From positions 1 to 37,084 of the forward strand of contig JARFRN010000031.1 in assembly GCA_029287195.1 (NCBI GenBank): a DNA stretch of 37,084 nucleotides. The letters run 5' to 3'. The DNA comes from Acidimicrobiia bacterium (lineage in GTDB: Bacteria; Actinomycetota; Acidimicrobiia; Spongiisociales; UBA5794). Below, in pieces: positions 4,520 through 24,277 of the stretch; position 1 is the stretch's first letter, and every line of letters starts with the position of its first letter. The notes below the pieces were generated by a model. That model worked only from the letters and a program-made list of their open reading frames with translations. It was not told the origin of the DNA and ran no database searches. The translations under genes were made by a program, and so were the position numbers.

Positions 4520-5656
4520 ATGGACTACCCACAACGGTCCGAAGATCTGGAATCGACTCTGCTGTGGATTACAACCGGCTATCGCCTCTTTTCGGCTGTT
4601 TGGCTCTCGATTCTCGGCGTGGTGGTGGTTGCCGGCGAGTCCACGGAAGTAGAGCGTCCGGCGATCGTAACTGTGACCGTCGTCGGCGTCGTAGGCTGGG
4701 CAGTTCTGGCCACCGGAGCACGCATCAGGACACCTTCACTGGCCCGATCGTGGGGTTTCGTCGCAGTCGACCTGGCAATCGGAGCATGGACAGTGGTGGC
4801 CGGAACGGTCGCCGGCACGATTCAATTTGCGGGTGGATATCCGCTGGCTGGGGCGTTCGCCGCCATCTATGCCTTCAGCACCACGGGCGGCATCATCGGC
4901 GCCGTCGTCCTGACAGCAGCCGGCCTGGTGCCGCTACTTGGACAGGGGCAGGGCCTGTCCCAGGAGGTTGCCAACGCTATCGCTTTCCTCTTCTCTGTGG
5001 GAGCTGCCACCGGTGTCGCTGCGACTTTGCGCACCTCGGATCGGCGCCGGGTCGAGGCTGAGGCGGCTCTGGCGACCGAGCGCGCAGAGCGAGCCCGTGC
5101 CGAGGAACACGCAGAGGTCGCTACCCACCTCCATGATTCGGTCCTGCAGACCCTGGCGCTGATCCAGCGCAATCCAGCCGCAACCTCCGATATCAAGGGA
5201 TTGGCGCGGCACCAGGAACGCGAGTTGCGCCGCTGGCTGTTTCCGGAGCAAGCGAGATCGACTAAGTCTGCCGGTGGTTTCCGGGAGGCATTGCTGGCCG
5301 CTTGCGCCGAGGCCGAGGATGTTGGCTCCACGAAGGTCGAGGCCGTGGTGGTAGGCGACACCGGAGCACCGACCGAGGCGATCGTCAACGCAGCAACCGA
5401 AGCCATTCGCAATGCCCTGGCCCATTCCGGAGCCGAATTGATCTCGGTCTATGGAGAAGCCGGGGAAGATGAGGTGCTCATCTTCGTCAAAGATCGCGGG
5501 TCGGGCTTTGATCCTGCGGCGGTCGATCCATCCCGGCACGGTGTCCGCGAATCTATCGTTGGACGTATGGATAGGAGCGGCGGCTCGGCCGAGATAATCT
5601 CATCTCCGGGAACCGGCACTGAGATCCGCCTCCGTCTCCCGATCGGGGAATCATGA
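4520..5656 (+). CDS. Membrane sensor histidine kinase, MacS-like
   Basis: The 378-residue kinase begins at ATG 4520 (MDYPQRSED), not at the track start. About five membrane helices fill residues 15-170, followed by a charged coiled linker. The dimerisation/phosphoacceptor helix carries HLHDSVLQTLALIQRN, with the phospho-accepting His near residue 205. A HATPase domain follows with an N-box (AATEAIRNALAHSG), G1 (VKDRGSGFDP), a RHGVRESIVGRM segment and a closing SPGTGTEIRLRLP. HDSVLQTLALIQ and RELRRWLF are typical of actinobacterial MacS-type NarL-partner kinases. The gene overlaps its response regulator by ATGA. The stimulus is unknown; the lack of an extracellular domain suggests membrane sensing. 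Confidence 0.85.
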   Translation: MDYPQRSEDLESTLLWITTGYRLFSAVWLSILGVVVVAGESTEVERPAIVTVTVVGVVGWAVLATGARIRTPSLARSWGFVAVDLAIGAWTVVAGTVAGTIQFAGGYPLAGAFAAIYAFSTTGGIIGAVVLTAAGLVPLLGQGQGLSQEVANAIAFLFSVGAATGVAATLRTSDRRRVEAEAALATERAERARAEEHAEVATHLHDSVLQTLALIQRNPAATSDIKGLARHQERELRRWLFPEQARSTKSAGGFREALLAACAEAEDVGSTKVEAVVVGDTGAPTEAIVNAATEAIRNALAHSGAELISVYGEAGEDEVLIFVKDRGSGFDPAAVDPSRHGVRESIVGRMDRSGGSAEIISSPGTGTEIRLRLPIGES

Positions 5657-6285
5657 CCACCGTCTTCATCGTCGACGACCACGACCTATTTCGCGCAGGG
5701 GTTCGCGCTGAGCTACCTGCAGATCTAGAGGTGATCGGCGATGCCTCTCAAGTAGAAGCAGCAATCGAGTTGATTCGCGAACGCCGACCAGACTTGGTGC
5801 TGGTAGATGTCCACATGCCGGACGGTGGCGGCCGGGCCGTCATCGAGGGGGTACACGACACGCATCCCGACATCCGCTTCCTGGCAATCTCCGCCTCGGA
5901 TGCGCCCGAGGATGTCGTCGCTACGGTGCGGGCCGGGGCGCGGGGCTACGTGACAAAGACGGTGTCTCCCCCAGACCTGGCTGCCGCCATTCGGCGGGTG
6001 ATCGAAGGCGACGCAGTGTTCTCACCGAAGCTCGCCGGGTTTGTGCTCGATGCGTTTGCCTCGATGGAGGTGAGAGACCTCGACCCTGATCTCGACAAGC
6101 TGACGAAGCGAGAGCGCGAAGTGCTGCAGCACATTGCTCGGGGCTACACGTATCGGGAGGTCGGCGAGCAGCTGTTCATCTCCACGAAGACGGTCGAGAA
6201 CCACATGTCCGCCGTTTTACGCAAGTTGCAGCTATCCAACCGGCGCGAGCTGACCAAGTGGGCCCAGGATCGGGACCTGATCTGA
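5653..6285 (+). CDS. NarL/FixJ-family response regulator with LuxR-type HTH
   Basis: This 210-residue regulator has a receiver domain (acidic DDHD at 8-11, phospho-accepting Asp in LVLVDVHMP near 52, Lys in GYVTKTVSP near 102). Its C-terminal LuxR-type HTH reads LTKREREVLQHIARGYTYREV then STKTVENHMSAVLRKLQLSNRREL. It overlaps the kinase gene by 4 bases and is surely its partner. It ends 6 bases before the convergent DUF1023 hydrolase. No target operator could be recognised; the adjacent proC and pspA run and the type VII locus are possible targets by position only. Confidence 0.93.
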   Translation: MTTVFIVDDHDLFRAGVRAELPADLEVIGDASQVEAAIELIRERRPDLVLVDVHMPDGGGRAVIEGVHDTHPDIRFLAISASDAPEDVVATVRAGARGYVTKTVSPPDLAAAIRRVIEGDAVFSPKLAGFVLDAFASMEVRDLDPDLDKLTKREREVLQHIARGYTYREVGEQLFISTKTVENHMSAVLRKLQLSNRRELTKWAQDRDLI

Positions 6286-6291
6286 ATGCCG

Positions 6292-7773
6292 TTATCCGAC
6301 AAGGTCGACGTCGACGTAACGACCTTGCATGATCCTGACGAGGTTCTCCAGGGATCCGGCCTCGAAGTATCCGGAGTGGCCGGAAGTTCCTTCGGTGCTG
6401 AAACGAACGGCCCCAAAGTCGTCATCGGCGGGATTGGCGCCGTGCCACAACTCTTGGGGACCGTTGCACACGCCGACCGACGACCACGGCGGAATGCATG
6501 CCGCCGTCACCCACCAGGGCGGCGACTCGACTGACACCGAGGCTGCGACGATCGGATCACCCGCAGCTAGTCCCACCCAGACCCGGCCCCCCGGCCTCAA
6601 CCGGGCGTCGGTTGCACCGTCCAGACCCGTGCCGGGGCTACCGACAAAGACGAGATCATCGGCTGCGAGCCCCTCCGCAGCCGCGAGTCCTGCCACCAGC
6701 GACCCGTAGCTGTGGGCGACAACCGTCACTTGGGTTTGAGCTCGCGGGTCGATTCCTTCGACGAAACGCTGCAGCGCCGGAGCGCCCGACTCTGCTGCAC
6801 CACGCAGCCCGGCATCGATGCCGTCCGGTGTGTCGTAGCCCAACCAAGCGATGGTGGCGATGCCGGGGCCCATCGCTGCCGCGGCCTCGTAGAGGGCGGC
6901 CGCATTGGATCGGAATCCCCCGTCGGCTGCGGAGCTGAAGTTGGTCTTGTCGTTGCCGATCCCGGGCACGACGACGGCGATGCGATCGGCCCGGTCGAGG
7001 TCTCCGAAAACCTCGACCAGCCTTCCGTCCCCGCGGGGATCGAACAGAAGAATTTGGCGCCCTTCGTCGAGCCATCTCCGGTACTCGATCACCTGGCGCC
7101 GCAGTCGTTCAATTGCCGCATCCGCGTCGGCCCGGCGGCGCAACGCGGGAACGAGCCGGCCCGGATCGATCCAGTCCACCCAGCTCAGCGGCTTCACCTC
7201 GGGGAGCCGGCTCAACTCCGCCTCCAACTCGCAGAGGTGGCGATGAATGAGGACTCGGTTGGCTCGGTAGCGGAGCTGTGGCGGTATTCCGTCGAGACGC
7301 CCAACAATGCCGGGGTACCGGTCCGCCAGATCTGTGCCGACCGATGGCGCCAGCCGGGAGAATGCTGCCTCGACCTGACGTGGCGACATGCCCAGGAAGG
7401 CCACGATGTGCGGCGGCCCGTTCCACTCGCTAAAAGACTCGCTCCGGCTGGCCCGGTCGAACACGGCATATGTAGCGAAATGGGTCAGGCCGTACAGGTA
7501 GCGGTGTTGGCCCACATAGCCGTGGGTGGTCACTTCTTGAGCCGTCTGGATTGCCCCGGCCCTCCTCTCGAGGGATTCTGCTGCCTCCGCTACCGCTTCG
7601 GCCGCTAGGTGCAGATGACGGGCGATCTCTGCGGCGGAAGCTTCGCCGCACCGGGCGGCCAATCCGGTAACGACGACGGCGACGCGGCGTATGTGTCGTG
7701 AGCTCTCCCGAGAAAGGCGGGCCAGGTTCCCGAGACCTTCCGGGTACGCTCCGACAAATCCGGCAGCGGTCAC
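6292..7773 (-). CDS. DUF1023 alpha/beta hydrolase with helical N-terminal region; candidate type VII substrate
   Basis: The 493-residue protein has a helical N-terminal half (about 1-245, rich in Ala/Arg/Glu) and a C-terminal DUF1023-type alpha/beta hydrolase. Signatures are VVVPGIGNDKTNF, TIAWLGYDTPDG, the nucleophile elbow VVAHSYGSLVAG (Ser near 355, with Ala in place of the usual first Gly), VGSPGTG, AGDPI (acid) and GTSGHSGYF (His). DUF1023 enzymes are common in actinobacterial WXG100 loci and some are proposed exported effectors. The start is GTG at 7773, overlapping the stop of the EccC-like gene by GTGA, so it is the last gene of that operon. The role as secreted enzyme is inference; there is no Sec signal peptide. 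Confidence 0.82.
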   Translation of the reverse strand: MTAAGFVGAYPEGLGNLARLSRESSRHIRRVAVVVTGLAARCGEASAAEIARHLHLAAEAVAEAAESLERRAGAIQTAQEVTTHGYVGQHRYLYGLTHFATYAVFDRASRSESFSEWNGPPHIVAFLGMSPRQVEAAFSRLAPSVGTDLADRYPGIVGRLDGIPPQLRYRANRVLIHRHLCELEAELSRLPEVKPLSWVDWIDPGRLVPALRRRADADAAIERLRRQVIEYRRWLDEGRQILLFDPRGDGRLVEVFGDLDRADRIAVVVPGIGNDKTNFSSAADGGFRSNAAALYEAAAAMGPGIATIAWLGYDTPDGIDAGLRGAAESGAPALQRFVEGIDPRAQTQVTVVAHSYGSLVAGLAAAEGLAADDLVFVGSPGTGLDGATDARLRPGGRVWVGLAAGDPIVAASVSVESPPWWVTAACIPPWSSVGVCNGPQELWHGANPADDDFGAVRFSTEGTSGHSGYFEAGSLENLVRIMQGRYVDVDLVG

Positions 7774-10700
7774 GGTCTGCCCAGCTGAACCAGCTCCACC
7801 TGTCCGTCAGCGAGCAGGTAGCCCCGGCCCACAGGGAAGTGTTGCGGCCCGCGTCGGGGAAGCTCGGTATGCCAGAGATCGCCGTCGGTAGCGAGATTGG
7901 GTCGCAGAGCACAGCCTATGCGCGACCGGCGCAGGTCTTGGGTCCAGTGTCCGTACATACGGCGAATCGCGTCGGCAGACCCGGCCGCCACGATCCGGAG
8001 CGCCCGCTGCCGCCTATTCACCAGCTCGCTGAGCTGCGGGGAGGCTGCTACGAGCTCGGCATCATCGACGAGGATCAATTGCGCACCGGATTCATCTAAT
8101 TCTGCGAGCGACCCGAGCGTGATCGTGCGGTCGACGGCGGCAGCCCCGCCCAGCGGGGATCGACGCGGAGTCATCGCTGTGACGATCAGATCTGGTCGGG
8201 CAGCCTTGGCGACGGCAGCAATGGTGGCGAGGGCGCTGCTCTTGCCAGAACGCGCCGGCCCGGTGATCAAGGCGTGCTCGCCGTCCCGCAGGACCCAACC
8301 CGACGGCAGGAGCAACGTGTCCCCGATCCCAAGAGGTAGAAACCACTCGTCGTCGGTGATCCTGCCGACCCCCACGACCTCGGCCGCACACACCTCCTGA
8401 GGAAGGACATCGATTTGCCACGGGGCCAATTGCGGATCGCCCCATCGATTCGCCTCCACTGCTGCCTCGAGACCATCGCGGTGGGAAAGCATCACCTGGA
8501 TCTCCCGCCCACTCCCGGATTCAAAGGCCCTGCCCGGAAGAATCGGCGGGTCGACGGCAGGAATCCCCAGCTCGGTGTAGTCGTATCGGTCGGCGAGACG
8601 GAACCCGATCTTCGATCCGACCAGCGATCCGATTCGGATGGGAATGTCACCCGGACGTTTTGCGCTGATGATTGTGTAGATGCCGACCCCGGGACCATCG
8701 GCAACGATCCGGGCAATGAGGTTGCGTGCCGTCATGTCACCGGGTTCGTCGTAGGCGTCATTGAACCCACCGAAGTTGTCCAATACCACAACGACGGTGG
8801 GGACGGGCGAGCCGGGCTCGGGACCGTGGCCGACCGTATCGCGCCTTCGTTGCAACTCTTCGGAAAGCCGCCGCAGCAGGCGGAGCTGCCGTTCGCCCTC
8901 GTGTACCCCGACAACCGCACCAACATGAGGCAACCGGCTCAGCGGACCGAGCAACTGGTCGTCGAAATCGAGCACGTAGATGTGGAGCCGATTGGGGTCA
9001 TAGTCGTGCGCCAGCCCTGTGACCAAAGATGCAACAGCCGTGGTCGTCCCACTGCCTGGCAGACCGTAGAGCAGCAGGTTGCCGCAGGACGGCGACCACA
9101 CTGCACCTACTTGTCGCTGCCGATGGGGTTCATCACCGAGGGCAAACACCGTACCCTCTCCGTCGGGATGGGGAATCTCGGACGGAAACAACCGGAAGGG
9201 CAGTGGTTCCGGCCACGGTAGGCGCGGTGGCGGGAGCTGCATAGTATCTGCGACGCGCACCGCGGCGTCAACGATCCTCTCCAGATCGGTCGGCCCGTCG
9301 CCCGAACCGGCTGGAGCAACCGGCTGCGGTTGCTCGTATGCGAATACAAATGGTCCAATCAGCCAGCGAGTCGTGTCGGCGGCAAGCGAGCGGTCGGTAG
9401 CGATTGCTGCCTGAAATGCCACGACATCCTGCGGTCCCAGCCGGGCCATGCCCCGACCCGGCTGATTGCGACCAATCTCGGCCGCCGCCGCGGAGCCGAT
9501 CACATCGACAGAGTCGATGCCGTCTTGCATCCGCAGAGCAATACGTAAGTTGGTATTGGCCTTGATGCTCTCCGAGATGACACCGCTGGGTCGTTGGGTG
9601 GCCAGCACCAGGTGGACGCCCAAACTGCGTCCCCGCTGGGCGATGCCGACCAGCGCTTCGATGAAGTCGGGAATCTCTTTCGCCAGCGCGGCGAACTCGT
9701 CAATGACGACCAGCAAGCGCGGCAGGGGATCGTCGGTATCCCCAAACTCCGCGATGTCCGTCACGGAAGCCTCCCGCAGCCGCTTCTCCCGATAACGCAG
9801 CTCGGCGTCGAGACAGGACAGCGCTCTAATCGCGAGGTGGTCGTCTAGATCGGTAACGACCCCAACGGTGTGCGGAAGTGCTGCGCATGCATCGAAGGCG
9901 CTGCCTCCCTTGTAGTCGATCAGAACGAAGTTCAGCAACGTCGGGCTGCACTCCACCGCCAGGCCTGCGACCAGGGTTCGGAGGAGCTCGGACTTACCGG
10001 CTCCGGTGGTACCACCGAGCAGGGCGTGCGGACCATCGGCGATCAGATCGACAATCACTCGTCCCCTATCGGAATGCCCGATCGGTACGGCCGGACTAAC
10101 CGGGCGCCGTTCCCAACGTCTCTGGATCGACCTGTCGAGATCCCGCTCGAGTCCCAGCAGCGCCGGCAGGTAGGCAACGCTGGGCAAAGCTGCTCCAAGA
10201 GCTTGCGCCTCGGGATCTTTGAGCCGTGCCAGTGCCCGCGCTGCCGAGCGGGCCCGGGCGGCACTGAGTAGCCACGGGCTCACCCCGGACTCTCGACCGT
10301 CCGGAAACCGCACCCGGCACGCCCCTTTGTCGAATACCACAACCGTTGTCGACAACGACGGGAGATCAGCGGTCTGCGTCGCCAGAGCGAGACCGGCGAT
10401 CGAACGCTTCGCCCCGTTGCGGAGCGCCGTTCGGATTTCTGGTCGGGCCCCTGTCACGAGATTGGGCACGTCCACGACAATGAGATGATGCGGGGTGACC
10501 GGCTCGTTCCCATCGCCGCCGGGGAGATGGGTGGCTACGGAAGCAACCTCGTTGTCGGTTGCCGCCAACCGACGACGCGGCCCACCGTCGATCGTCACAT
10601 GCGGGAGCCATTTCGCCCAATCCCATTCGGCCGCGTTTTCCGTCACAATGGTGATCGCTAGATCGGCGGGCCCGTGATGCACCGCCGCCTGAAGCACCAC

Positions 10701-11564
10701 CTGACGAGCCAGCCCGAGGATTTGGCGACGTGCCCCGGCGACGCCCGTCGTGGCCCCTGCATCAAGCCGAATCTGCAACGGTACGCCATGCAGTTTGCCT
10801 AAGCGCTGCAGAATCGCACCCGACCCCACATCGAGCTGCCCCCGGAGATGCGGCTGCCATGGAATACACCCGGTACCGATCGGCAACTCCATGAAGTCGG
10901 CGTGGTCGGCTCGCCGCTCCCAAAGACGCGAATCCCTGTCGGCCACCCTTCGCAAGAGTTCTCGAGGAGGGGTCACTGCAGCGAGCGCTGCCTCGATGGC
11001 TCCACGATGGGCGGAAGCAACTTGCGCTCCAAACCGCTCGAGGGCAGCACCGTAGACCTGTCGTGTCTCTCGCCGCTCCCGCCCGGCGCGCCGCCGATCC
11101 TCGAACCTGTTTGCCAGCAGCATGACCGGCGAGAAGAGGGCAAACATCGCCATGCGCGGATGGATAAGCACGGCCATGGTAAGGCCGAGAAAGATCGGCA
11201 CTACGAGCGCGGCCCAGCCGAAGCGGGCGACCCTGGGAGGTTCTTGTGGGGCATGCGGAACGGTCAAGGGTTGTGCGGCAAGCCCGATCACCCGTCGCGG
11301 AGGACGGTTGAAGATTCCCTTCGAGACCTGCCCTGTGAAGCCTGCACCGACCACCGCTGGAGCATCGAACTCGATCACAGATCCGTCACCGAGACCCGAC
11401 TCCGCGAGCGGCATCGTGCGACCAACGGCGCAACCGTCGACTGCGATGCTCGCTGCGTCGCTGAGGTCCCACGAATCGGCGAGATCACCGAAGGTCTTGT
11501 CCCTTCCGGCGAGGTCGCAGTTGACCTCGTATTCGGTGTCGCCCAGGCGAACCACCAGCTGCAT
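7770..11564 (-). CDS. eccC: EccC/EssC-like FtsK-SpoIIIE ATPase of a type VII secretion system
   Basis: The 1264-residue motor of the locus. An N-terminal domain of about 70 residues looks ubiquitin-like or FHA-adjacent, followed by two membrane helices (about 117-150) and three P-loop modules. Module 1 is intact (Walker A GGTTGAGKSE near 516, Walker B LLVVIDEFAAL near 617, then LVLATQRPSG). Module 2 has a degenerate Walker A (GLPGSGTTT near 834, no Lys) and Walker B (VVVVLDNFGG, no Glu). Module 3 keeps GPARSGKSS (near 1102) with LILVDDAEL. This three-module plan is that of EccC/EssC, with EccCa and EccCb fused. The ATG overlaps the preceding WXG-like gene stop as TGATG, and the stop overlaps the DUF1023 hydrolase gene. 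Confidence 0.9.
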   Translation of the reverse strand: MQLVVRLGDTEYEVNCDLAGRDKTFGDLADSWDLSDAASIAVDGCAVGRTMPLAESGLGDGSVIEFDAPAVVGAGFTGQVSKGIFNRPPRRVIGLAAQPLTVPHAPQEPPRVARFGWAALVVPIFLGLTMAVLIHPRMAMFALFSPVMLLANRFEDRRRAGRERRETRQVYGAALERFGAQVASAHRGAIEAALAAVTPPRELLRRVADRDSRLWERRADHADFMELPIGTGCIPWQPHLRGQLDVGSGAILQRLGKLHGVPLQIRLDAGATTGVAGARRQILGLARQVVLQAAVHHGPADLAITIVTENAAEWDWAKWLPHVTIDGGPRRRLAATDNEVASVATHLPGGDGNEPVTPHHLIVVDVPNLVTGARPEIRTALRNGAKRSIAGLALATQTADLPSLSTTVVVFDKGACRVRFPDGRESGVSPWLLSAARARSAARALARLKDPEAQALGAALPSVAYLPALLGLERDLDRSIQRRWERRPVSPAVPIGHSDRGRVIVDLIADGPHALLGGTTGAGKSELLRTLVAGLAVECSPTLLNFVLIDYKGGSAFDACAALPHTVGVVTDLDDHLAIRALSCLDAELRYREKRLREASVTDIAEFGDTDDPLPRLLVVIDEFAALAKEIPDFIEALVGIAQRGRSLGVHLVLATQRPSGVISESIKANTNLRIALRMQDGIDSVDVIGSAAAAEIGRNQPGRGMARLGPQDVVAFQAAIATDRSLAADTTRWLIGPFVFAYEQPQPVAPAGSGDGPTDLERIVDAAVRVADTMQLPPPRLPWPEPLPFRLFPSEIPHPDGEGTVFALGDEPHRQRQVGAVWSPSCGNLLLYGLPGSGTTTAVASLVTGLAHDYDPNRLHIYVLDFDDQLLGPLSRLPHVGAVVGVHEGERQLRLLRRLSEELQRRRDTVGHGPEPGSPVPTVVVVLDNFGGFNDAYDEPGDMTARNLIARIVADGPGVGIYTIISAKRPGDIPIRIGSLVGSKIGFRLADRYDYTELGIPAVDPPILPGRAFESGSGREIQVMLSHRDGLEAAVEANRWGDPQLAPWQIDVLPQEVCAAEVVGVGRITDDEWFLPLGIGDTLLLPSGWVLRDGEHALITGPARSGKSSALATIAAVAKAARPDLIVTAMTPRRSPLGGAAAVDRTITLGSLAELDESGAQLILVDDAELVAASPQLSELVNRRQRALRIVAAGSADAIRRMYGHWTQDLRRSRIGCALRPNLATDGDLWHTELPRRGPQHFPVGRGYLLADGQVELVQLGRP

Positions 11565-12335: not shown

Positions 12336-13115
12336 ATGACGGAGAAGTCGGTCGGCAGGTTGATCACCCTTCTGGCGGCTAATGCGTCGCTCACGCTGGG
12401 ATTCCACCTACTCGGGTCGTATCCGGTATTCGCCGCCGAGTGGTCGCTGACCTGGCTCGACCAAGCGGACCCCGAAGTCGCCGTCGCTGCGTTGCTCCGG
12501 GTGATTGGTCTGATCCTCTGCTACTGGGTGTTGATTACAACTACGATCTATGCGCTGTCGAGAAGCCGCGGCCGGGTGCCGAGGACGATCCGATGGATGA
12601 CGATTCCCGCGATCCGCTACATCGTCGATCGCGCTCTTGCGACAACGCTGCTGATCTCAGCACTGGCCGTACCGTCCCATCCCTTGGCCGCAGCCGAGGA
12701 CCCCGAACCGGGGATCGTCCTCGAGATCCACGGGGACCGCATCCCCGTGCCGCACCTCCGGCCGGAACCGGTCGCCCCGGGCGCTACCCCAGCCGACCCG
12801 ACACCCGGCCCCCACGCGGCAGCAAGTCCGATACCACTGTTACTCGCACCCCCGGCAGCTGCGCCGGCTGCGGTCCTTCCCGTCGCTGCGCTACCAGGTG
12901 AAGAAAACTACACGGTCGCTCCCGGTGACAGCCTGTGGCTGATCGCCGAGACACAGGTCCAGGCTGCAACGGGAGACATACCGACCGAGCAAATGATTGC
13001 GACGTACTGGCGGGAGCTGATCGACATCAACATCGCCGGCCTGCGTTCACGTAACCCCAACCTGATCTACGCCGGCGAGCTCTTGACGTTGCCGAAACTC
13101 GAGGTGCAACCGTGA
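12336..13115 (+). CDS. Polytopic membrane protein with C-terminal LysM domain (type VII locus)
   Basis: The 259-residue protein has three hydrophobic segments (about 8-32, 51-74, 95-120), a Pro/Ala-rich linker (about 125-190) and a C-terminal LysM domain (about 200-256: ENYTVAPGDSLWLIAE through NPNLIYAGELLTLP). LysM binds peptidoglycan, so the protein probably anchors an envelope complex to the wall. It is the first gene of the plus-strand arm, divergent from the WXG100-EccC operon, and its stop overlaps the next start (GTGA). It shows no relation to EccB, EccD or EccE that I can see, so a structural role in secretion is inferred from context. Confidence 0.72.
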   Translation: MTEKSVGRLITLLAANASLTLGFHLLGSYPVFAAEWSLTWLDQADPEVAVAALLRVIGLILCYWVLITTTIYALSRSRGRVPRTIRWMTIPAIRYIVDRALATTLLISALAVPSHPLAAAEDPEPGIVLEIHGDRIPVPHLRPEPVAPGATPADPTPGPHAAASPIPLLLAPPAAAPAAVLPVAALPGEENYTVAPGDSLWLIAETQVQAATGDIPTEQMIATYWRELIDINIAGLRSRNPNLIYAGELLTLPKLEVQP

Positions 13116-14014
13116 CTATGGCGGACATGCTGGGAGCTCCGATCTGTGACCCACCGGACCCGATCGCGCCGACTTCCGATCCCTGCCCGCTACCGGCCCG
13201 GGACACTCGACCTGAGGTTGCAAACCCAACGAGGCGTCACCTCGTTCGGCTTTCCTTGGTCGTTGCGACCGCTCTCTGCGTCGGAGTAGCGGTCGGCACC
13301 TACGCGATCCCCCACAGGACGGAACTCGCCCCAAGGCCAACCGCCGCAGCGGCCAACGAGGTGCCGGCGGGGGTCGCCGGATTCGCCGAGCTATTCGTCG
13401 CCACCCACTTGTCCGCCATCGTCGCCGCGGAACACCGAGCTGCGCTCTACCCGAATGGTGGTGCGCCCCCAGATCCCAGCGGCCTGTGGGTCAACCGGGC
13501 GGCGACAACTGCGGCCGTAGCCGTCGATGAGAACGTTTGGCGGGTGACGGTGGCGGCGGAGGTCTTGGAGAAGGTCGACGACACGTATGAACCAGCCGGG
13601 ATCCAGTACTACACAGTCATCGTTGCCCAGACCGACGCACAGCCTATGGCCTTGTCCGCTCCCAGTCGTACCCCGATTCCCGAGGAACCGACGCGGACGA
13701 AGACTGCTCCGCGCTACACCGGAGCGGTGCCCCCAGATCAGGAAACAGCCGTTGTCGACTTCCTGACCGCATATCTCACCGGAAACGGCGAAGTCGCCAG
13801 GTATGTCGCCCCGACTGCCAGGATTGCCCTGTTCTCGGCTCCGCCTTACGTGTCCGCCGAGATCGTGAGCATTGGCGCCGACTCGCTGGGGCGGATTCGG
13901 GCACAGCTGACCGCAGTTTCTGCGAGCGGTGCAACTCCAAGACTCGAGTACACGCTCGAGATGACCTATGAGAGCGGCGTCTGGGAAGTCCTCGCAATGG
14001 CCCCGTCGACATGA
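13112..14014 (+). CDS. TcpC/VirB8-like single-pass membrane protein (conjugation-type NTF2 domains)
   Basis: The 300-residue protein has a Pro-rich cytoplasmic start, one membrane helix (about 45-67, RLSLVVATALCVGVAVGTYAI) and an extracytoplasmic part. This reads as two related NTF2-like domains: AGFAELFVATHLSA in the first, and ETAVVDFLTAYLTGNGEVARYVAPTA in the second. The layout and the FLTAYLTG...RYVAP pattern resemble TcpC, the VirB8-like component of Gram-positive conjugation channels. The start is GTG 13112 (overlap GTGA) or ATG 13118, and the stop overlaps the next gene by ATGA. No relaxase or other transfer gene is nearby, so it may be part of the type VII machine. The TcpC assignment is by eye. 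Confidence 0.55.
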   Translation: MTMADMLGAPICDPPDPIAPTSDPCPLPARDTRPEVANPTRRHLVRLSLVVATALCVGVAVGTYAIPHRTELAPRPTAAAANEVPAGVAGFAELFVATHLSAIVAAEHRAALYPNGGAPPDPSGLWVNRAATTAAVAVDENVWRVTVAAEVLEKVDDTYEPAGIQYYTVIVAQTDAQPMALSAPSRTPIPEEPTRTKTAPRYTGAVPPDQETAVVDFLTAYLTGNGEVARYVAPTARIALFSAPPYVSAEIVSIGADSLGRIRAQLTAVSASGATPRLEYTLEMTYESGVWEVLAMAPST

Positions 14015-14763
14015 ACGATCCCGGCCGACGCAGCGCGATCGACCATAGGCGGCGCTCGTTCTCCGTACCGAAGCGCCTGATGCCGGCCATACTGGCGCTT
14101 CACGCCGGCGAGCAGTCGCATTCTGCCGCAACGATCGCCGAACTGGAATCCGTTGACATCCTGGTCGACGGGGAACTCGACCCTTTGGTGGCGACCCTCA
14201 TGACGGTGATGACCGGCCCGAGGATGGTGGTGGCGGTCGAGGCGGCAGGAGTGAGAGCGCAGCGAATGGCAACTATTTGGGAGTCCGGGCGCCGCGCCGT
14301 GCTCGGTACTACCGCCGATCGGGATCAGTTCGACCTTCTCCAGATCGAACCAGAGCTGCTCCCCTTCCATCTCGCCCAGGTCACCGATTTGACTCCCCGA
14401 CCACAACCTCCTTTCAAGGGTGCGATTACGGTGCCGAAGGCGACGCTGCACCGTGTCGAAGACGTAATTGCTCGGGACCAAAGAGCTGCCGAGCGCGAGT
14501 TGCGAGCCGCAGGCCTCGTCTATCCGTGGTCCGATTGGCTGCTCATCGCCCTGGCGCATCGTCGGGCCCTGTGGACGATCGAAGCGATTTGGCTCGCCGG
14601 CCGTACCAAGCGAGCGGAGCAAATGACGGTGCTGGATGCCGGATCGGTCGGCTACTGGACCGTCAAAGAGAGTTCCTGCCGGGACACAGTCACGCTCCGT
14701 GTCAGCGACTTCGATCAAGTGCTACGCCGCTGCAGCGCGCTGCTTCCGGCTACGGCGCGGTAG
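14011..14763 (+). CDS. EspG-like type VII secretion-associated protein
   Basis: A soluble 250-residue protein. Its pattern (ILVDGELDPLVATLMTVMTGPRMVVAVEAAG, then FDLLQIEPELLPFHLAQVTDL, closing VTLRVSDFDQVLRRCSALLP) resembles the EspG/ESX-associated chaperone fold, which holds substrates for EccC. No signal peptide or membrane helix is seen. It is translationally coupled (ATGA) to the TcpC-like gene and ends the plus-strand arm, one base before the convergent acyl-CoA dehydrogenase. Remote similarity and context support the call; without a profile search it could be an unrelated cytosolic protein of the locus. Confidence 0.5.
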   Translation: MNDPGRRSAIDHRRRSFSVPKRLMPAILALHAGEQSHSAATIAELESVDILVDGELDPLVATLMTVMTGPRMVVAVEAAGVRAQRMATIWESGRRAVLGTTADRDQFDLLQIEPELLPFHLAQVTDLTPRPQPPFKGAITVPKATLHRVEDVIARDQRAAERELRAAGLVYPWSDWLLIALAHRRALWTIEAIWLAGRTKRAEQMTVLDAGSVGYWTVKESSCRDTVTLRVSDFDQVLRRCSALLPATAR

Positions 14764-18889: not shown

Positions 18890-19603
18890 GTGGATTGGAA
18901 GCAGCATTTTGCCCGGATCTACCAAAACGAGCCGGAGAAGTATCAACGGCTGGTGGCGGCAGAAGACCGTACAGGTGAGCTGGCATCGCGCGTCGAGGAG
19001 CTCGCCACCGCCGGTAGCCGCATCGTCGACATCGGCGCCGGAACCGGCCGACTCACGCTCGGACTGTGCCGACCGGGCAATGAGATTCACGGAATCGACA
19101 AAGAGGCGGCGATGCTGGACATCGCCCGAGGCCGGCTCGAAGCTTGTGGCGGGCAGTGGCAGTTGAGCGTCGCCGACGCCCGCGAGCTACCGATTGCTAC
19201 CGGGTGGGCCGACGCCGCTATAGCGGGCTGGGTCTTTGGCCACTTCACCGAGTGGCACCCGGACGACTGGGAGCAAGAGCTGGACAAGGCAATCGCCGAG
19301 ATGGATCGTGTCGTCCGTCCGGAAGGCATCGAGGTCGTCATCGACACGCTGGGGACGGGCACCACTGAGCCGAAGGCACCCAACCAGGCGTTGGCTGAGT
19401 ACCACCTCCGACTGGAGGACCGTGGTTTCGAGCGAACGGTACTTCGCACCGACTACGAATTCGACTCTGTGGAGGAATCGATCGAGTTGCTGGATTGGTT
19501 CTTCGGACTCGGAGATTGGGCACGCCGGCACAACAACAAGCGGATACCCGAGTACACCGGCTGGTGGGAGCGAACGACATCCAATCAAGCACGCGGCGGG
19601 TAG
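18890..19603 (+). CDS. Class I SAM-dependent methyltransferase
   Basis: The 237-residue enzyme has motif I (SRIVDIGAGTGRLTLGL), an acidic loop (IHGIDKEAAMLDIA), motif SVADARELPIATGWADAAIAG and later RPEGIEVVIDTLG, the standard class I order. The ORF track reports a 668-residue frame from 17597, but its first two thirds are antisense to two well-supported genes. The GTG at 18890, 6 bases after a TATGAT box, begins the protein (VDWKQHFARIYQNEPEKY). The substrate is unknown. The gene is followed after 23 bases by the DUF1704 gene on the same strand. Confidence 0.82.
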   Translation: MDWKQHFARIYQNEPEKYQRLVAAEDRTGELASRVEELATAGSRIVDIGAGTGRLTLGLCRPGNEIHGIDKEAAMLDIARGRLEACGGQWQLSVADARELPIATGWADAAIAGWVFGHFTEWHPDDWEQELDKAIAEMDRVVRPEGIEVVIDTLGTGTTEPKAPNQALAEYHLRLEDRGFERTVLRTDYEFDSVEESIELLDWFFGLGDWARRHNNKRIPEYTGWWERTTSNQARGG

Positions 19604-19612
19604 CGCACGCTC

Positions 19613-19618
19613 TACAGT
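19613..19618 (+). promoter_or_regulatory. TACAGT -10 box upstream of the DUF1704 gene
   Basis: TACAGT is 8 bases before the GTG at 19627, with no ribosome site between, matching the leaderless pattern seen across the window. Confidence 0.4.
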
Positions 19619-19626
19619 GAAGCATT

Positions 19627-21522
19627 GTGAGCAAGCCCGTCAGCATCAGTGATCGACTAATCGCAACGGTCCGGAAGCGACTCGCCGCCAATCAGCCGGT
19701 GCGCCGCACACTGCCCGAGCGCGGACGGCTGCATATCGATCGCCAGTTGCCTTTTCTCGTTGTGTACCGACGGCGCCGTGCAGGAGCCGATGAGGGTACG
19801 GCCAGCCTGGTCCGCGGAGAGGCGTCGTACCTGATAGCGCCCTACGGGAGTAGGCACACCAGGAAGACGTCCGCTCTGCTCGAAGCTATCTCCGAGGAGA
19901 TGGTGGAGGTCTTCGGCGAATTTCTGGTCGTCGAAATCTGGAGCGCCCCGGCTCCGCCGTCGGTGCCGGACGAGCTAGGTGAACTTCCCAAACCGGCGTT
20001 TCGAGTTGTCGTCCCACGGCGCGACAGCGATTCAGCGAGCGTAGGCGCCCTGGTGGAGAGACTCGGCAAGATACGTATCCAAGGACGACGGGCTGAGGTG
20101 GAATTGGCTCCGGGAGGTCGCATGTCGCCGCCCGGGGAGCCTCGCCTCAACCGCAAGTTTGGATCAGCCAACTCCCCAATTCGTCTGATCGGTATCGAAG
20201 TCCGGCCCGTCTACCGCAACGATGAGACGGGAGAGATGTTCCCTGAAGTCCGCCGCTCTCTACACCGCCAGTTGTCCGTCGCCATCCAGCAAGCTGCATA
20301 TCACTTTGCGATTCATCAAACGACACACCGGCCACGTCACTATCAAGCGCTGGGGAGGAGGGCGATTGTCAAGGCAGTCACCGATGTTGATGCTCGACTT
20401 GCCGAGATAGCCGCGGCCTTTGATCTACTGCTTCTGGTCTCACCCGTCAACGCCGATCGGGAGTATCGATCGTTTCGGCGGAATGGGGAGCAACGACCAC
20501 CCCGGTTCAGGTACCGACCCATGGACATAGATCCGGACACGCTGAAACGCAAGCTCTACGCCATTCCAATCGAACGGGTCGAAGATCCGACGCTGGCGGC
20601 AATCTTCCGAGAGAAGCGGCGCGAGTTATCGCTACAACTCGATCTGTTGAGCGATCTCGGCACTCCCAGGTTCATACATACGGGCGTCGCGCTCTACGGG
20701 AGCGTCGACTCCGGCACCGTGAATGAGGCCGTGAGGGTTCTCGACCGCTGGCAAGCTGATGAGACACAGAGCTCCCGTACCGTCGGGGCGGACGCTTTTG
20801 CGGCGGCTGCACAACGGGAGATATCTCGCTATCAAGATATCTACCCGGCTCTTGGGGCCCGGGTTGAGATTCGGGACGACATCAACTCGTTGATGGTGTC
20901 ACAAGGCCACTTGCTGGTTGGGTCGGCGGTGAGGATTCCGGTGGGAAGAGTCGAAGCGCTGGTGCAACACGAAGTGGGTACCCACGTCGTCACCTATTGG
21001 AACGGGCGCGCCCAGCGGCTCCGCCTTCTGTCGAATGGGCTCGCCCGGCATGAGGAGCTCCAGGAAGGTCTCGCGGTTCTCGCCGAGTATCTCGTTGCGG
21101 GGCTGACCCCGGCCAGACTCCGCGCCGTCGCCGGAAGGGTCGTTGCCGCCCAATCTGTTGTCGATGGAGCCGGGTTCATCGATACCTATCGGCAGCTGCG
21201 CAACGAGCACGGCTTCGGCAGTCGCCTCGCATTCCAGACTGCCACCCGGCTGCACCGTGGCGGAGGCTTCGTAAAGGATGCGATCTACTTCCGTGGACTG
21301 CGCGCCGTTATCGGCTACCTTGCGGAAGGGGGCCGGCTCGACACGCTGCTCATCGGCAAAATCGCAGTCGAACAGGTTCCGGTAATCGAGGAGCTCCAGC
21401 GGCGGGGAGTCCTCGAGCCGCCGCCGCTGCGTCCCGCTTACCTGGACGAACCCGACACCCACTATCAGCTGGAGAAGCTGCGCAACGGCATAGATATCGC
21501 GTCGCTGGCCGGGGCGGGCTAG
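19627..21522 (+). CDS. DUF1704 (QEGLA-motif) putative metallopeptidase
   Basis: The 631-residue protein carries both hallmarks of this family: a zinc-type HEVGTH motif (about 448-453) and the HEELQEGLAVLAEYL motif (QEGLA near 479-483, with a third metal-ligand candidate among the glutamates). Human members (MATCAP/TMCP group) are tyrosine carboxypeptidases that use the HExxxH site. Bacterial members carry the name flavohemoglobin expression-modulating QEGLA motif protein, but their reaction is unsettled. The start is GTG 19627. It converges with the formylglutamate amidohydrolase by a 4-base overlap of stop codons. The grouping with that gene and an ATP-grasp ligase points to a shared pathway on small peptides or glutamyl compounds (inference). 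Confidence 0.85.
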   Translation: MSKPVSISDRLIATVRKRLAANQPVRRTLPERGRLHIDRQLPFLVVYRRRRAGADEGTASLVRGEASYLIAPYGSRHTRKTSALLEAISEEMVEVFGEFLVVEIWSAPAPPSVPDELGELPKPAFRVVVPRRDSDSASVGALVERLGKIRIQGRRAEVELAPGGRMSPPGEPRLNRKFGSANSPIRLIGIEVRPVYRNDETGEMFPEVRRSLHRQLSVAIQQAAYHFAIHQTTHRPRHYQALGRRAIVKAVTDVDARLAEIAAAFDLLLLVSPVNADREYRSFRRNGEQRPPRFRYRPMDIDPDTLKRKLYAIPIERVEDPTLAAIFREKRRELSLQLDLLSDLGTPRFIHTGVALYGSVDSGTVNEAVRVLDRWQADETQSSRTVGADAFAAAAQREISRYQDIYPALGARVEIRDDINSLMVSQGHLLVGSAVRIPVGRVEALVQHEVGTHVVTYWNGRAQRLRLLSNGLARHEELQEGLAVLAEYLVAGLTPARLRAVAGRVVAAQSVVDGAGFIDTYRQLRNEHGFGSRLAFQTATRLHRGGGFVKDAIYFRGLRAVIGYLAEGGRLDTLLIGKIAVEQVPVIEELQRRGVLEPPPLRPAYLDEPDTHYQLEKLRNGIDIASLAGAG

Positions 21523-22298
21523 CGCCCCAGGTGCGATCGAACAGCCGCAGCAGCAACCGCCAGCGCTTCACCGACGGCGACGATTACAGCGTCGTCGGGC
21601 TGCCCGGTCCACTCGTCCATGTAGATCTTCTTGACCTCGATTGCGATCGTGCACCCCCGCCCGGCGTACTTGCTGTTGATCCAACGACTCATGTGCCCGC
21701 CCCTGAATCGAACGTTTTCGCGAACATCGAGATGGCCGCCATCGAAGGGATGGCGCGCCAGCGACTCGATGAAGGTCTCAACCACATCGCCCCACCTATC
21801 ACGATCCACCGATCCGGTACCGACGTTGACTTCGGGGTTTGCGGTGGGATCGTCCACGGGCGCATCGGGGCCCTGGCGGCGCTGGTTGTAGGAGTGGATG
21901 TCAAAGACTACGAAACCGGGGAACTCGGCAGCCATCTCGTCGCAGACGTCGGCGAGGTCTGCGTAGAAGCTGTCATAGATCTCTTGCGTCCTCTTCACGA
22001 GGTCATCTGGAAGGGGCCGATCCCACAACTCGAGTCCCCAGGCGTCTTGCGGGCTCGAGTAGATTGTGGCTTCGCGTGGTCTGTTGAGGTCGAGCTCGAA
22101 GCGTGATGCCGACACCGCAATCGAGTTGGCGGCATACCACAGCCATTGGTCGGTGAATGGGTCCTCCTCGCGGAGCCGAATCTCCTCTGGAATGACGCAA
22201 CGAGCCGCCACCTCTGGACGGAGCTCATGGCCGGCATGGATCGCAGTTGCCAGGATCGGGTCGTCACCCCTGGCGACCTCCCAACGTACGCCGCTCAT
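21519..22298 (-). CDS. N-formylglutamate amidohydrolase family protein
   Basis: The 259-residue protein has the family pattern AIHAGHELRPE near the N-terminus, a middle segment FELDLNRPREATIYSS and the metal or acid segment FVVFDIHSYNQRR. HLDVRENVRFRGGHMSRW and IAIEVKKIYMDEW follow. Classical members release formate from N-formylglutamate in histidine degradation, but no hut gene is present, so the true substrate may be another acylated glutamate or peptide. The ATG overlaps the stop of the ATP-grasp gene (ATGA), and its stop overlaps that of DUF1704 on the other strand. Confidence 0.85.
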   Translation of the reverse strand: MSGVRWEVARGDDPILATAIHAGHELRPEVAARCVIPEEIRLREEDPFTDQWLWYAANSIAVSASRFELDLNRPREATIYSSPQDAWGLELWDRPLPDDLVKRTQEIYDSFYADLADVCDEMAAEFPGFVVFDIHSYNQRRQGPDAPVDDPTANPEVNVGTGSVDRDRWGDVVETFIESLARHPFDGGHLDVRENVRFRGGHMSRWINSKYAGRGCTIAIEVKKIYMDEWTGQPDDAVIVAVGEALAVAAAAVRSHLGR

Positions 22299-23338
22299 AA
22301 GGTCGCCATCTCCCGGTTGTCGAATTTGCGCTGGTAGAACCGCATGTATTCGACCTTCCTGGCGAGCGCGTCAAGAACCGCCTCGGTGAAATTGACGCCC
22401 TCCAGCTTCTGGGCCGAACCAAGACCGCCGGGGGTGAAGACGTTGATCTCCATCAATTTGTCCCCCACGATGTCGAGCCCAACAAGGAACATCCCGTCCT
22501 GAACCAATTTCGGACGAACCATCTCGGAGAGACTGAAGGCGTCGTCATCGAGCACCGCCTTGGCAAGACTGCCCCCGGCGTGGATGTTCGAACGCATGTC
22601 TCCACCCTGTCGGACCCTGCGGAAAGCGGCATACCTACCGCGATGACGCAGCGGGCTTCCGTTCATCAGAAACAGCCGGGTATCGCCCTCCTCAGCGCGG
22701 GTCAAATACTCCTGGGCGATGACATAGCCATCACGGCTGACTGCATCGATGATCTGATTGAGATTCGCCGCATCGTCGTGCCGCACCAAAAAGACCCCTT
22801 CACCTCCCGATCCCTGGAGCGGCTTGAGCACAACCCGTCCTCGATCGGCCACGAAGGCTTTGATTTCGCTGCGGTTTCGTGTGATGAGCGTTTCCGGCCG
22901 CACCTCCTCAGGAAAGGTCTGGAAGTACATCTTGGTTTGCGCTTTCGCCAGACCGTTCGGATCGTTGAGGACGATAACCCCATGGCGCATGGCTATCCGC
23001 CCGAAGTCGATTGCGGCGGTTTTGGCCCAGTCCCTCCGCCCCTTCTCCGTTGACGGATCGTTGCGCAGCATCAGCACATCGAGATCATCCACCACCACCC
23101 GTTCCTGGACCGTATTGGGTCCCTGGAGATCCCGCAGATAGGCACTCCCGGTCTTGTAGCGCTGCCGGGGCACCCGGCGCGCTGTTGCCTTGACCTGCTC
23201 GTCGGAGTCATACGCAAGGTCGCCGACGCTGATCGTCCATGCCTCCCAGCCGCGGTTGGTTGCGGCCACCCCGAGTCGGGTGGTGGTGTAGACCGCCTGT
23301 TCGGTGGCGATGTCATTCACTACAAAGGCAAGCTTCAC
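22295..23338 (-). CDS. Glutathione synthetase-like ATP-grasp ligase
   Basis: The 347-residue protein (from the chosen GTG 23338, MKLAFVVNDIATEQAVYTTT) has an N-terminal pre-ATP-grasp domain, the ATP-grasp nucleotide segment GRVVLKPLQGSGGEGVFLV, IAQEYLTRAEEGDTRLFLM and the metal-binding end GLDIVGDKLMEINVFTPGGL, close to GshB. The track starts 12 codons earlier, but GTGGAG precedes this GTG at good spacing and homologous proteins begin at this point. It is coupled (ATGA) to the amidohydrolase. It may join an amino acid to a glutamyl compound rather than make glutathione. The substrate is uncertain. Confidence 0.8.
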   Translation of the reverse strand: MKLAFVVNDIATEQAVYTTTRLGVAATNRGWEAWTISVGDLAYDSDEQVKATARRVPRQRYKTGSAYLRDLQGPNTVQERVVVDDLDVLMLRNDPSTEKGRRDWAKTAAIDFGRIAMRHGVIVLNDPNGLAKAQTKMYFQTFPEEVRPETLITRNRSEIKAFVADRGRVVLKPLQGSGGEGVFLVRHDDAANLNQIIDAVSRDGYVIAQEYLTRAEEGDTRLFLMNGSPLRHRGRYAAFRRVRQGGDMRSNIHAGGSLAKAVLDDDAFSLSEMVRPKLVQDGMFLVGLDIVGDKLMEINVFTPGGLGSAQKLEGVNFTEAVLDALARKVEYMRFYQRKFDNREMATL

Positions 23339-23449
23339 GCGACTCCACTTCTCAGAAACAACGGTGGGTTCCACCGGCCATCCGGAATGTCACCCATGGC
23401 AGACCGACGATACACCGGCCGAGCCGCCAGCAACAGGCTCCATTCCCGA

Positions 23450-24277
23450 CTAAGGCTTCTCCAGCCTCCTGATCTCGAATGGCGTCCCCCCGTCGGGGAA
23501 ATCGAAGCGAACGGCCGCCGTCTTCTCCGACATGTGGTGAACCCTGAGAAACAACTCCACGAATGGGTCGTCGTAGCCCGACGAACCAATGCTCACAGCG
23601 AGCATCCCCCGTTCGACGGTGAAGCCCCCATCCGCAACAACGCCGGGCAGCGTCACCCCGTTGAGCGTTACCAGCACCCGATCCTCCGTCTCGTAACCGG
23701 CCGCGCGGAGATGGGACCTACGCATGCTCGTCTTGATGTTGCCGAAACCGTCGGTCCATGCGACCAAGTTGGGGGGCGCGGCCTCGATTGTGGCGGGGTC
23801 GAGTTCCGCTCCAAGAACCGACCGATCCCCGTCGACGATCGCAGCAACACGCCGCGGGAAGAAATCGCGGGATCGGAATTGCGACCCGGCGTCGGGGCTG
23901 ATGACCTCCCGGTACTCGGCCACTTCACCCTTCACGAAGCCGAAGGCGAACTCTGAGGAGACGCTGACTATCTCGACATCATTGCGCAGCCGCGCATACT
24001 GCAGCCTGCGCCCGCGGTTCTCGGTGGCCATCTCATGGCGGTCGCGGCGTGGTGCCGAATTCCCGAAGATCACAGTACGCGCCGCAACAGGAGCTAGGGC
24101 CAACTGTGCCGTGACAAAACCGACTGCGATGGTGTCGAGCGGCGGAGTCGCCGTTTGATGAATCAGGACGGCGCTCGGTTCGCCCAGGTGATGATGTAGC
24201 CGGGTCTTGATCTCGGCAAACTCGAGCCCGTCGGGGGCGTAATCGCAAACCAGATGAAGAAGTGCTTCTCGTACCAC
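23450..24277 (-). CDS. Divergent SAM hydroxide adenosyltransferase/halogenase-family (DUF62) protein
   Basis: The 275-residue protein resembles the DUF62/SAM-dependent chlorinase-fluorinase family. A large N-terminal alpha/beta part is followed by a C-terminal beta domain with LVAWTDGFGNIKTSM, LVTLNGVTLPGVV, GMLAVSIGSSGYDDPFVEL. Typical members open with a TDFG-type motif holding the catalytic Asp and later a DH segment. Here the start reads LLHLVCDYAPDGLEF and those motifs are not obvious. It may be a diverged member with altered or lost hydrolase activity. The start GTG 24277 is 41 bases downstream of selD on the same strand. The assignment rests mostly on the C-terminal half. Confidence 0.55.
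   Translation of the reverse strand: MVREALLHLVCDYAPDGLEFAEIKTRLHHHLGEPSAVLIHQTATPPLDTIAVGFVTAQLALAPVAARTVIFGNSAPRRDRHEMATENRGRRLQYARLRNDVEIVSVSSEFAFGFVKGEVAEYREVISPDAGSQFRSRDFFPRRVAAIVDGDRSVLGAELDPATIEAAPPNLVAWTDGFGNIKTSMRRSHLRAAGYETEDRVLVTLNGVTLPGVVADGGFTVERGMLAVSIGSSGYDDPFVELFLRVHHMSEKTAAVRFDFPDGGTPFEIRRLEKP

Follow-up and report, generated by a model that had tools for sequence, protein, structure and literature searches.

Introduction

In the tubulin tyrosination cycle, the ATP-grasp ligase TTL is opposed by a carboxypeptidase of the MATCAP family. Gene neighbourhoods in which ATP-grasp amidoligases stand beside peptidases of unrelated folds were reportedly described by Iyer and colleagues in 2009. 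In this study, we analysed a window of 37,084 nucleotides (contig JARFRN010000031.1 of assembly GCA_029287195.1, an Acidimicrobiia bacterium whose genome is 83% complete) in which genes for a MATCAP/DUF1704-family zinc metallopeptidase, a protein of the N-formylglutamate-amidohydrolase family (hereafter FGase) and a GshB-type ATP-grasp ligase are adjacent at positions 19627-23338. The closest named matches of the contig are metagenome-assembled genomes of Acidimicrobiia and Actinomycetes. It is nearly certain that these three genes constitute a genuine, self-contained module.

The locus resembles the tubulin tyrosination cycle in setting an ATP-grasp ligase against a MATCAP-family peptidase, but TTL is not of the GshB type. 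Its peptidase shares with the MATCAP/TMCP tubulin carboxypeptidases (PF08014; KIAA0895L, structure 7z5g) the family fold, the HExxxH...E metal site and the HE(I/V)GTH motif. However, the form studied here is bacterial and operon-borne, has no tubulin to act upon, and often carries a probable degenerate FGase-like domain at its N terminus. A search of the open literature returned nothing on the trio, and we make no claim to priority for the linkage. New in this analysis are the degenerate domain, the gene fusions, the contrast between two MATCAP clades, the empty insertion sites and an EcfG-type promoter motif in rhizobia.

Results

Architecture of the locus

The MATCAP gene (19627..21522, plus strand) encodes a long-form protein of 631 amino acids that matches PF08014 over residues 282-615 (294.9 bits against a gathering threshold of 27, E=1e-87) and falls just short of TIGR02421, the model for QEGLA proteins (328.4 bits, cut-off 338.65). 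It is the sole copy in its genome. The other two genes lie on the minus strand. The FGase gene (21519..22298) encodes 259 amino acids and scores 84.8 bits against PF05013 (gathering threshold 28.9, E=1.3e-23), and the ligase gene (22295..23338) encodes 347 amino acids when read from a GTG start codon at 23338, which is preceded by GGAG and lies in a frame open from 23374. Both domains that define a GshB-type enzyme are present in the ligase (PF02955, E=1.3e-50; PF02951, E=1.5e-9), the only PF02955 protein of this genome. The stop codon of the ligase overlaps the FGase start in the sequence ATGA (22295..22298), an arrangement of translational coupling, and FGase and MATCAP meet tail to tail at a palindromic CTAG (21519..21522) that supplies both stops. 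The initial annotation, which had named these three families and described both overlaps, is confirmed on each of these points, and its end coordinate agrees with the GTG start of the ligase.

Recurrence, linkage and gene order

Among 395 genomes of the class Acidimicrobiia, MATCAP proteins of the clade found in trios occur in 14, and the 13 genomes with a trio-type ligase all fall within those 14. Trio-type FGase is present in 15 genomes, 12 of which belong to the same 14. These overlaps correspond to hypergeometric probabilities, computed without regard to the relatedness of the genomes, of 2e-23 for the ligase and 2e-18 for FGase. In a tree of MATCAP proteins, a ligase and/or FGase gene lies within approximately 10 kb of 29 of the 30 trio-clade members, compared with none of the 22 other members. 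Three genomes (G439, G448 and G583) hold both kinds of MATCAP and so serve as internal controls; in each, linkage is restricted to the trio-clade copy. The three proteins also co-diverge (Mantel r 0.84-0.87, 0 of 2000 permutations).

Linkage is seen in Actinobacteria and in Alpha- and Gammaproteobacteria, including rhizobia and Vibrionaceae. Evidence across phyla comes from a plasmid collection, in which MATCAP and FGase are found in nearly the same taxa and numbers (125 and 116 records), with the difference due mainly to Pseudoalteromonas copies of the unlinked MATCAP clade. The suggestion in the initial annotation that the trio recurs in distant bacteria is borne out, and the co-occurrence is clearly beyond chance.

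A survey of the genes beside the trios, from which antisense shadow frames had been filtered, revealed no fourth recurrent partner, and the module therefore appears to consist of exactly three genes. A larger biosynthetic cluster was ruled out on the same ground.

At least four gene orders exist, in addition to fusions of FGase with MATCAP. The order FGase, MATCAP, ligase is found in the operons of rhizobia and in many actinobacteria. The order seen in the window, with ligase and FGase converging on MATCAP, is repeated at three other loci (L002, L003 and L005); ligase, FGase and MATCAP follow one another at L096; and MATCAP is separated by a gap from ligase and FGase at L004. In Photobacterium (L075, L076), the ligase gene precedes an FGase-MATCAP fusion whose FGase part retains its metal ligands. 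Another FGase-MATCAP fusion, in Vibrio sp. HDW18 (L043:7878-9869), has lost FGase ligands (D46 to A and H135 to Y) and has no adjoining ligase. In one genome (G427, L106:2920-4430) the trio has decayed: MATCAP is missing from between FGase and a ligase remnant that comprises just the final 96 residues. In G556, the gene for a trio-type FGase occurs outside any trio and lies opposite that for an ATP-grasp protein of another kind, which has the PreAtp-grasp domain PF18604 (L107:2739-4529 and 4876-6195); this is possibly an alternative pairing with a ligase.

Mobility of the cassette

Six other genomes of the same genus as the window lack all three genes, and in two of these, G722 and G667, the genes that flank the trio are contiguous at the same place. 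The nucleotide alignment (blastn) to the congener G722, on which the call of an empty site rests, ends at window position 19572 and restarts at 23456, with approximately 20 bp between the flanks in G722. The cassette accordingly spans 19573..23455. The patchy distribution and the clean empty sites, which could stem from gain or from loss, together fit a horizontally mobile cassette.

The cassette does not stand out as a compositional island: the G+C fraction of the trio (0.60-0.62) resembles that of its flanks, despite the empty site. A link to phages was also discarded, there being no match among 50,697 phage records. In two congeners, G604 and G566, a single UvrD-family (UvrD/HRDC) helicase gene (L120:5483-8293 and L123:1415-4222) occupies the methyltransferase/SelD-side junction where the trio lies in the window, and this junction is possibly an insertion-prone spot.

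The three enzymes

All three trio proteins look catalytically competent when aligned with their relatives. In MATCAP, the HEVGTH zinc-binding and catalytic motif (residues 448-453, 20968..20985) and the QEGLA motif (residues 479-483, 21061..21075), whose Glu480 is the third metal ligand, are intact, as had been noted initially. The two histidines and the glutamate of the former and E480 of the latter are invariant across 16 bacterial relatives, and human MATCAP (7z5g) aligns its HEIGTH to HEVGTH and its EEG to QEGLA. The human MATCAP relatives are C-terminal carboxypeptidases (PMC10499314).

The FGase protein retains the M14-like metal site of its family. Its metal ligands H21, D46 and H135 and its catalytic E221 line up with those of canonical members, and it thereby shares with HutG (TIGR02017, PF05013) the family, the metal ligands and the catalytic glutamate. 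However, it scores only 37 bits against the HutG equivalog TIGR02017, for which the cut-off is 278.75, and the signature KK.[FY]M[DE]E sets it apart. Genes for histidine use, moreover, do not recur beside the trios.

The ligase shares with Escherichia coli GshB a two-domain organization, and the structure of the latter (1gsa) matches it with E=1.6e-37. Residues K184, R233, R253, R261, D301, E309 and N311, which align to the ATP and Mg positions and the catalytic arginines of E. coli GshB, are invariant in 20 relatives.

A probable degenerate domain at the N terminus of MATCAP

In the long MATCAP proteins of the window, of several actinobacteria and of rhizobia, the N terminus is extended by about 235 residues (19627..20331 in the window) that have no Pfam match. 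PDB sequences gave no match to MATCAP or FGase when each protein was searched singly, nor to an FGase alignment. For full-length MATCAP, the structure model was of low quality (pLDDT 63, from a shallow alignment), and the N-terminal domain alone was taken further. An AlphaFold2 model of this domain, also from a shallow alignment, reached a pLDDT of 80. Its best PDB match by Foldseek is the N-formylglutamate amidohydrolase 2q7s (E=4.7e-5, prob 1.00, TM-score ~0.35-0.42). Moreover, hhalign matches a profile of 14 MATCAP N-terminal domains to that of the trio FGase, with 135 aligned columns (E=2.3e-5, probability 76%). In a joint alignment with FGase, the conserved R..xD motif is retained, but all three metal ligands are gone from all 14 domains: H21 is absent, the region of D46 is deleted and H135 is replaced by W, D or G.

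We therefore propose, with moderate confidence, that the N-terminal domain is a dead copy of FGase fused to the peptidase. The fusions of the Vibrionaceae demonstrate that this kind of joining occurs. The short MATCAP proteins of other trios lack the domain, and it is thus not essential.

Regulation in rhizobia

The motif GGAAC-N18/19-TT, which is the promoter type of the EcfG general stress response (PMC3892343, PMC6599016), is present within 110 bp upstream of all six rhizobial trios. The same motif occurs in 1.4% of random segments and at 8 of 66 neighbouring gene starts. From this pattern, EcfG control of the rhizobial trios is predicted; a search of the open literature found no transcriptome for these genes. 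On two Ensifer plasmids (L041:7037-8083 and L042:7001-8047), an extra trio-type ligase stands alone among stress-type genes, including those for CsbD, topoisomerase IB, a ferritin-like protein and LigD.

Other features of the window

An open reading frame of 275 amino acids that adjoins selD (23450-24277) has no Pfam or NCBIfam match, and its counterparts in five congeners, likewise at or close to selD, share 70-84% identity with it. At 7770-11564, an FtsK/SpoIIIE-type ATPase of 1264 amino acids has an adjoining gene for an Abhydrolase_8 alpha/beta hydrolase and, nearby, one for an Rv1476-like membrane protein; together they possibly form a type VII secretion-like locus. Three coupled open reading frames lie head to tail at 12336-14763, the first with a weak LysM match and the other two without a Pfam match at the limits used.

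Discussion

The simplest joint role for the three proteins is the synthesis and trimming of a compound, given the type of the ligase and the N-acyl and C-terminal release reactions of the two hydrolase families. We tentatively propose, at a little under an even chance, that this self-contained mobile cassette makes and trims a small peptide-like compound, of a gamma-glutamyl or glutathione-like kind. The substrate and product, the order of the steps and their direction are what we infer here. The ligase would activate a carboxylate, probably that of a small gamma-glutamyl or peptidyl substrate, as an acyl phosphate and would then join it to an amine such as that of an amino acid. FGase, as a zinc amidase, would take off an N-acyl or glutamyl-type group, and MATCAP, a predicted zinc carboxypeptidase, would take off a C-terminal residue. 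The dead FGase-like domain of the long MATCAP proteins would probably act as a module for docking or for holding the substrate, and the rhizobial cassette is probably turned on by the general stress response.

Several observations weigh against this proposal or against parts of it. The profile statistics ignore the kinship of the genomes. Two genomes (G047 and G032) keep MATCAP and ligase without a trio-type FGase, and G412 has MATCAP alone, and coupling between the steps is therefore perhaps not obligatory; conversely, G556 and G571 have a trio-type FGase without the other two genes. The assignment of the N-terminal domain depends on a model built from a shallow alignment, whose match has a low TM-score, and on a single comparison by hhalign at 76% probability. 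Similarly, the promoter test covers only six related loci, and neighbouring genes also carry the motif (the 8 of 66 given above).

The initial annotation grouped the three genes as a possible pathway for a peptide or glutamyl conjugate. Its grouping is supported as far as a recurring trio of competent-looking enzymes is concerned, but this support does not extend to the reversible tagging cycle or to the tyrosine or gamma-glutamyl substrates that it suggested. In such a cycle, the ligase would add a residue to the C terminus of a protein or peptide and MATCAP would remove it, in the manner of TTL and MATCAP acting on tubulin, with FGase as an accessory. The genomes that retain MATCAP and ligase without FGase could be viewed as holding the minimum pair for writing and erasing, and both the carboxypeptidase activity of the human MATCAP relatives and the active-site HE(I/V)GTH that human MATCAP has in common with trio MATCAP are in keeping with this idea. 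Nevertheless, we consider a tagging cycle unlikely. The ligase is of the GshB type, which acts on small-molecule substrates, and is much nearer to GshB (132 bits) than to the protein ligases of the RimK type (31 bits); it also falls below the cut-off of the RimK-type subfamily TIGR00768 (69.9 against 143.4 bits). Furthermore, neither a conserved small open reading frame nor a fixed protein target is found beside the trio.

Alternatively, the ligase might make glutathione or a homologue within the ordinary metabolism of glutathione or an analogue, with the two hydrolases serving in salvage. Its score exceeds the cut-off of the NCBIfam model PRK12458 ("glutathione synthetase"), and the genome, in which it is the sole PF02955 protein, contains one homologue of GCS2 (PF04107). 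However, the ligase misses the cut-offs of both glutathione synthase equivalogs (TIGR01380, 197.7 against 299.05 bits; NF003573, 213.1 against 272 bits), and its neighbours are two zinc hydrolases rather than a gamma-Glu-Cys ligase. In Sinorhizobium sp. C101, a second and more distant match (36%), with ordinary GshB character, lies on a 3.5-Mb replicon separate from that of the trio. A GCS2-type ligase had initially been placed in the window, but when the complete genome was searched in six frames with PF04107, none was located in the window and the single copy lay on a different contig (C211). Relatives commonly have GCS2 whether or not they have the trio, and GCS2 thus gives no specific link and is uninformative as a partner at the level of lineages. 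Taken together, these data leave ordinary glutathione metabolism improbable as well.

A broader and quite doubtful scenario is that the ligase and the carboxypeptidase constitute a write-erase system acting on small peptides or on protein C termini, as a parallel in prokaryotes to the tubulin tyrosination cycle, joined by a second zinc hydrolase whose dead copy would be the fused docking domain. That the three are independent stress-response enzymes hitch-hiking together under a common promoter, as the EcfG motif in rhizobia and the lone second ligase copies of Ensifer among stress genes (CsbD, topoisomerase IB, LigD) might suggest, is very unlikely, because their linkage outlasts at least four gene orders, a gene fusion and repeated empty sites in phyla without EcfG, and because the three proteins co-diverge.

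With the synthesis and trimming of a small peptide-like compound as the preferred reading, three vaguely named families, one of them annotated as "flavohemoglobin expression-modulating QEGLA motif protein", become a single testable pathway, and the relatives of the MATCAP tubulin carboxypeptidases are provided with a bacterial setting. Sinorhizobium meliloti is a tractable host in this regard, as it has the genes in one operon with a probable general-stress promoter. That the trio travels as a unit among distant bacteria hints at an unrecognised pathway that is possibly related to stress.

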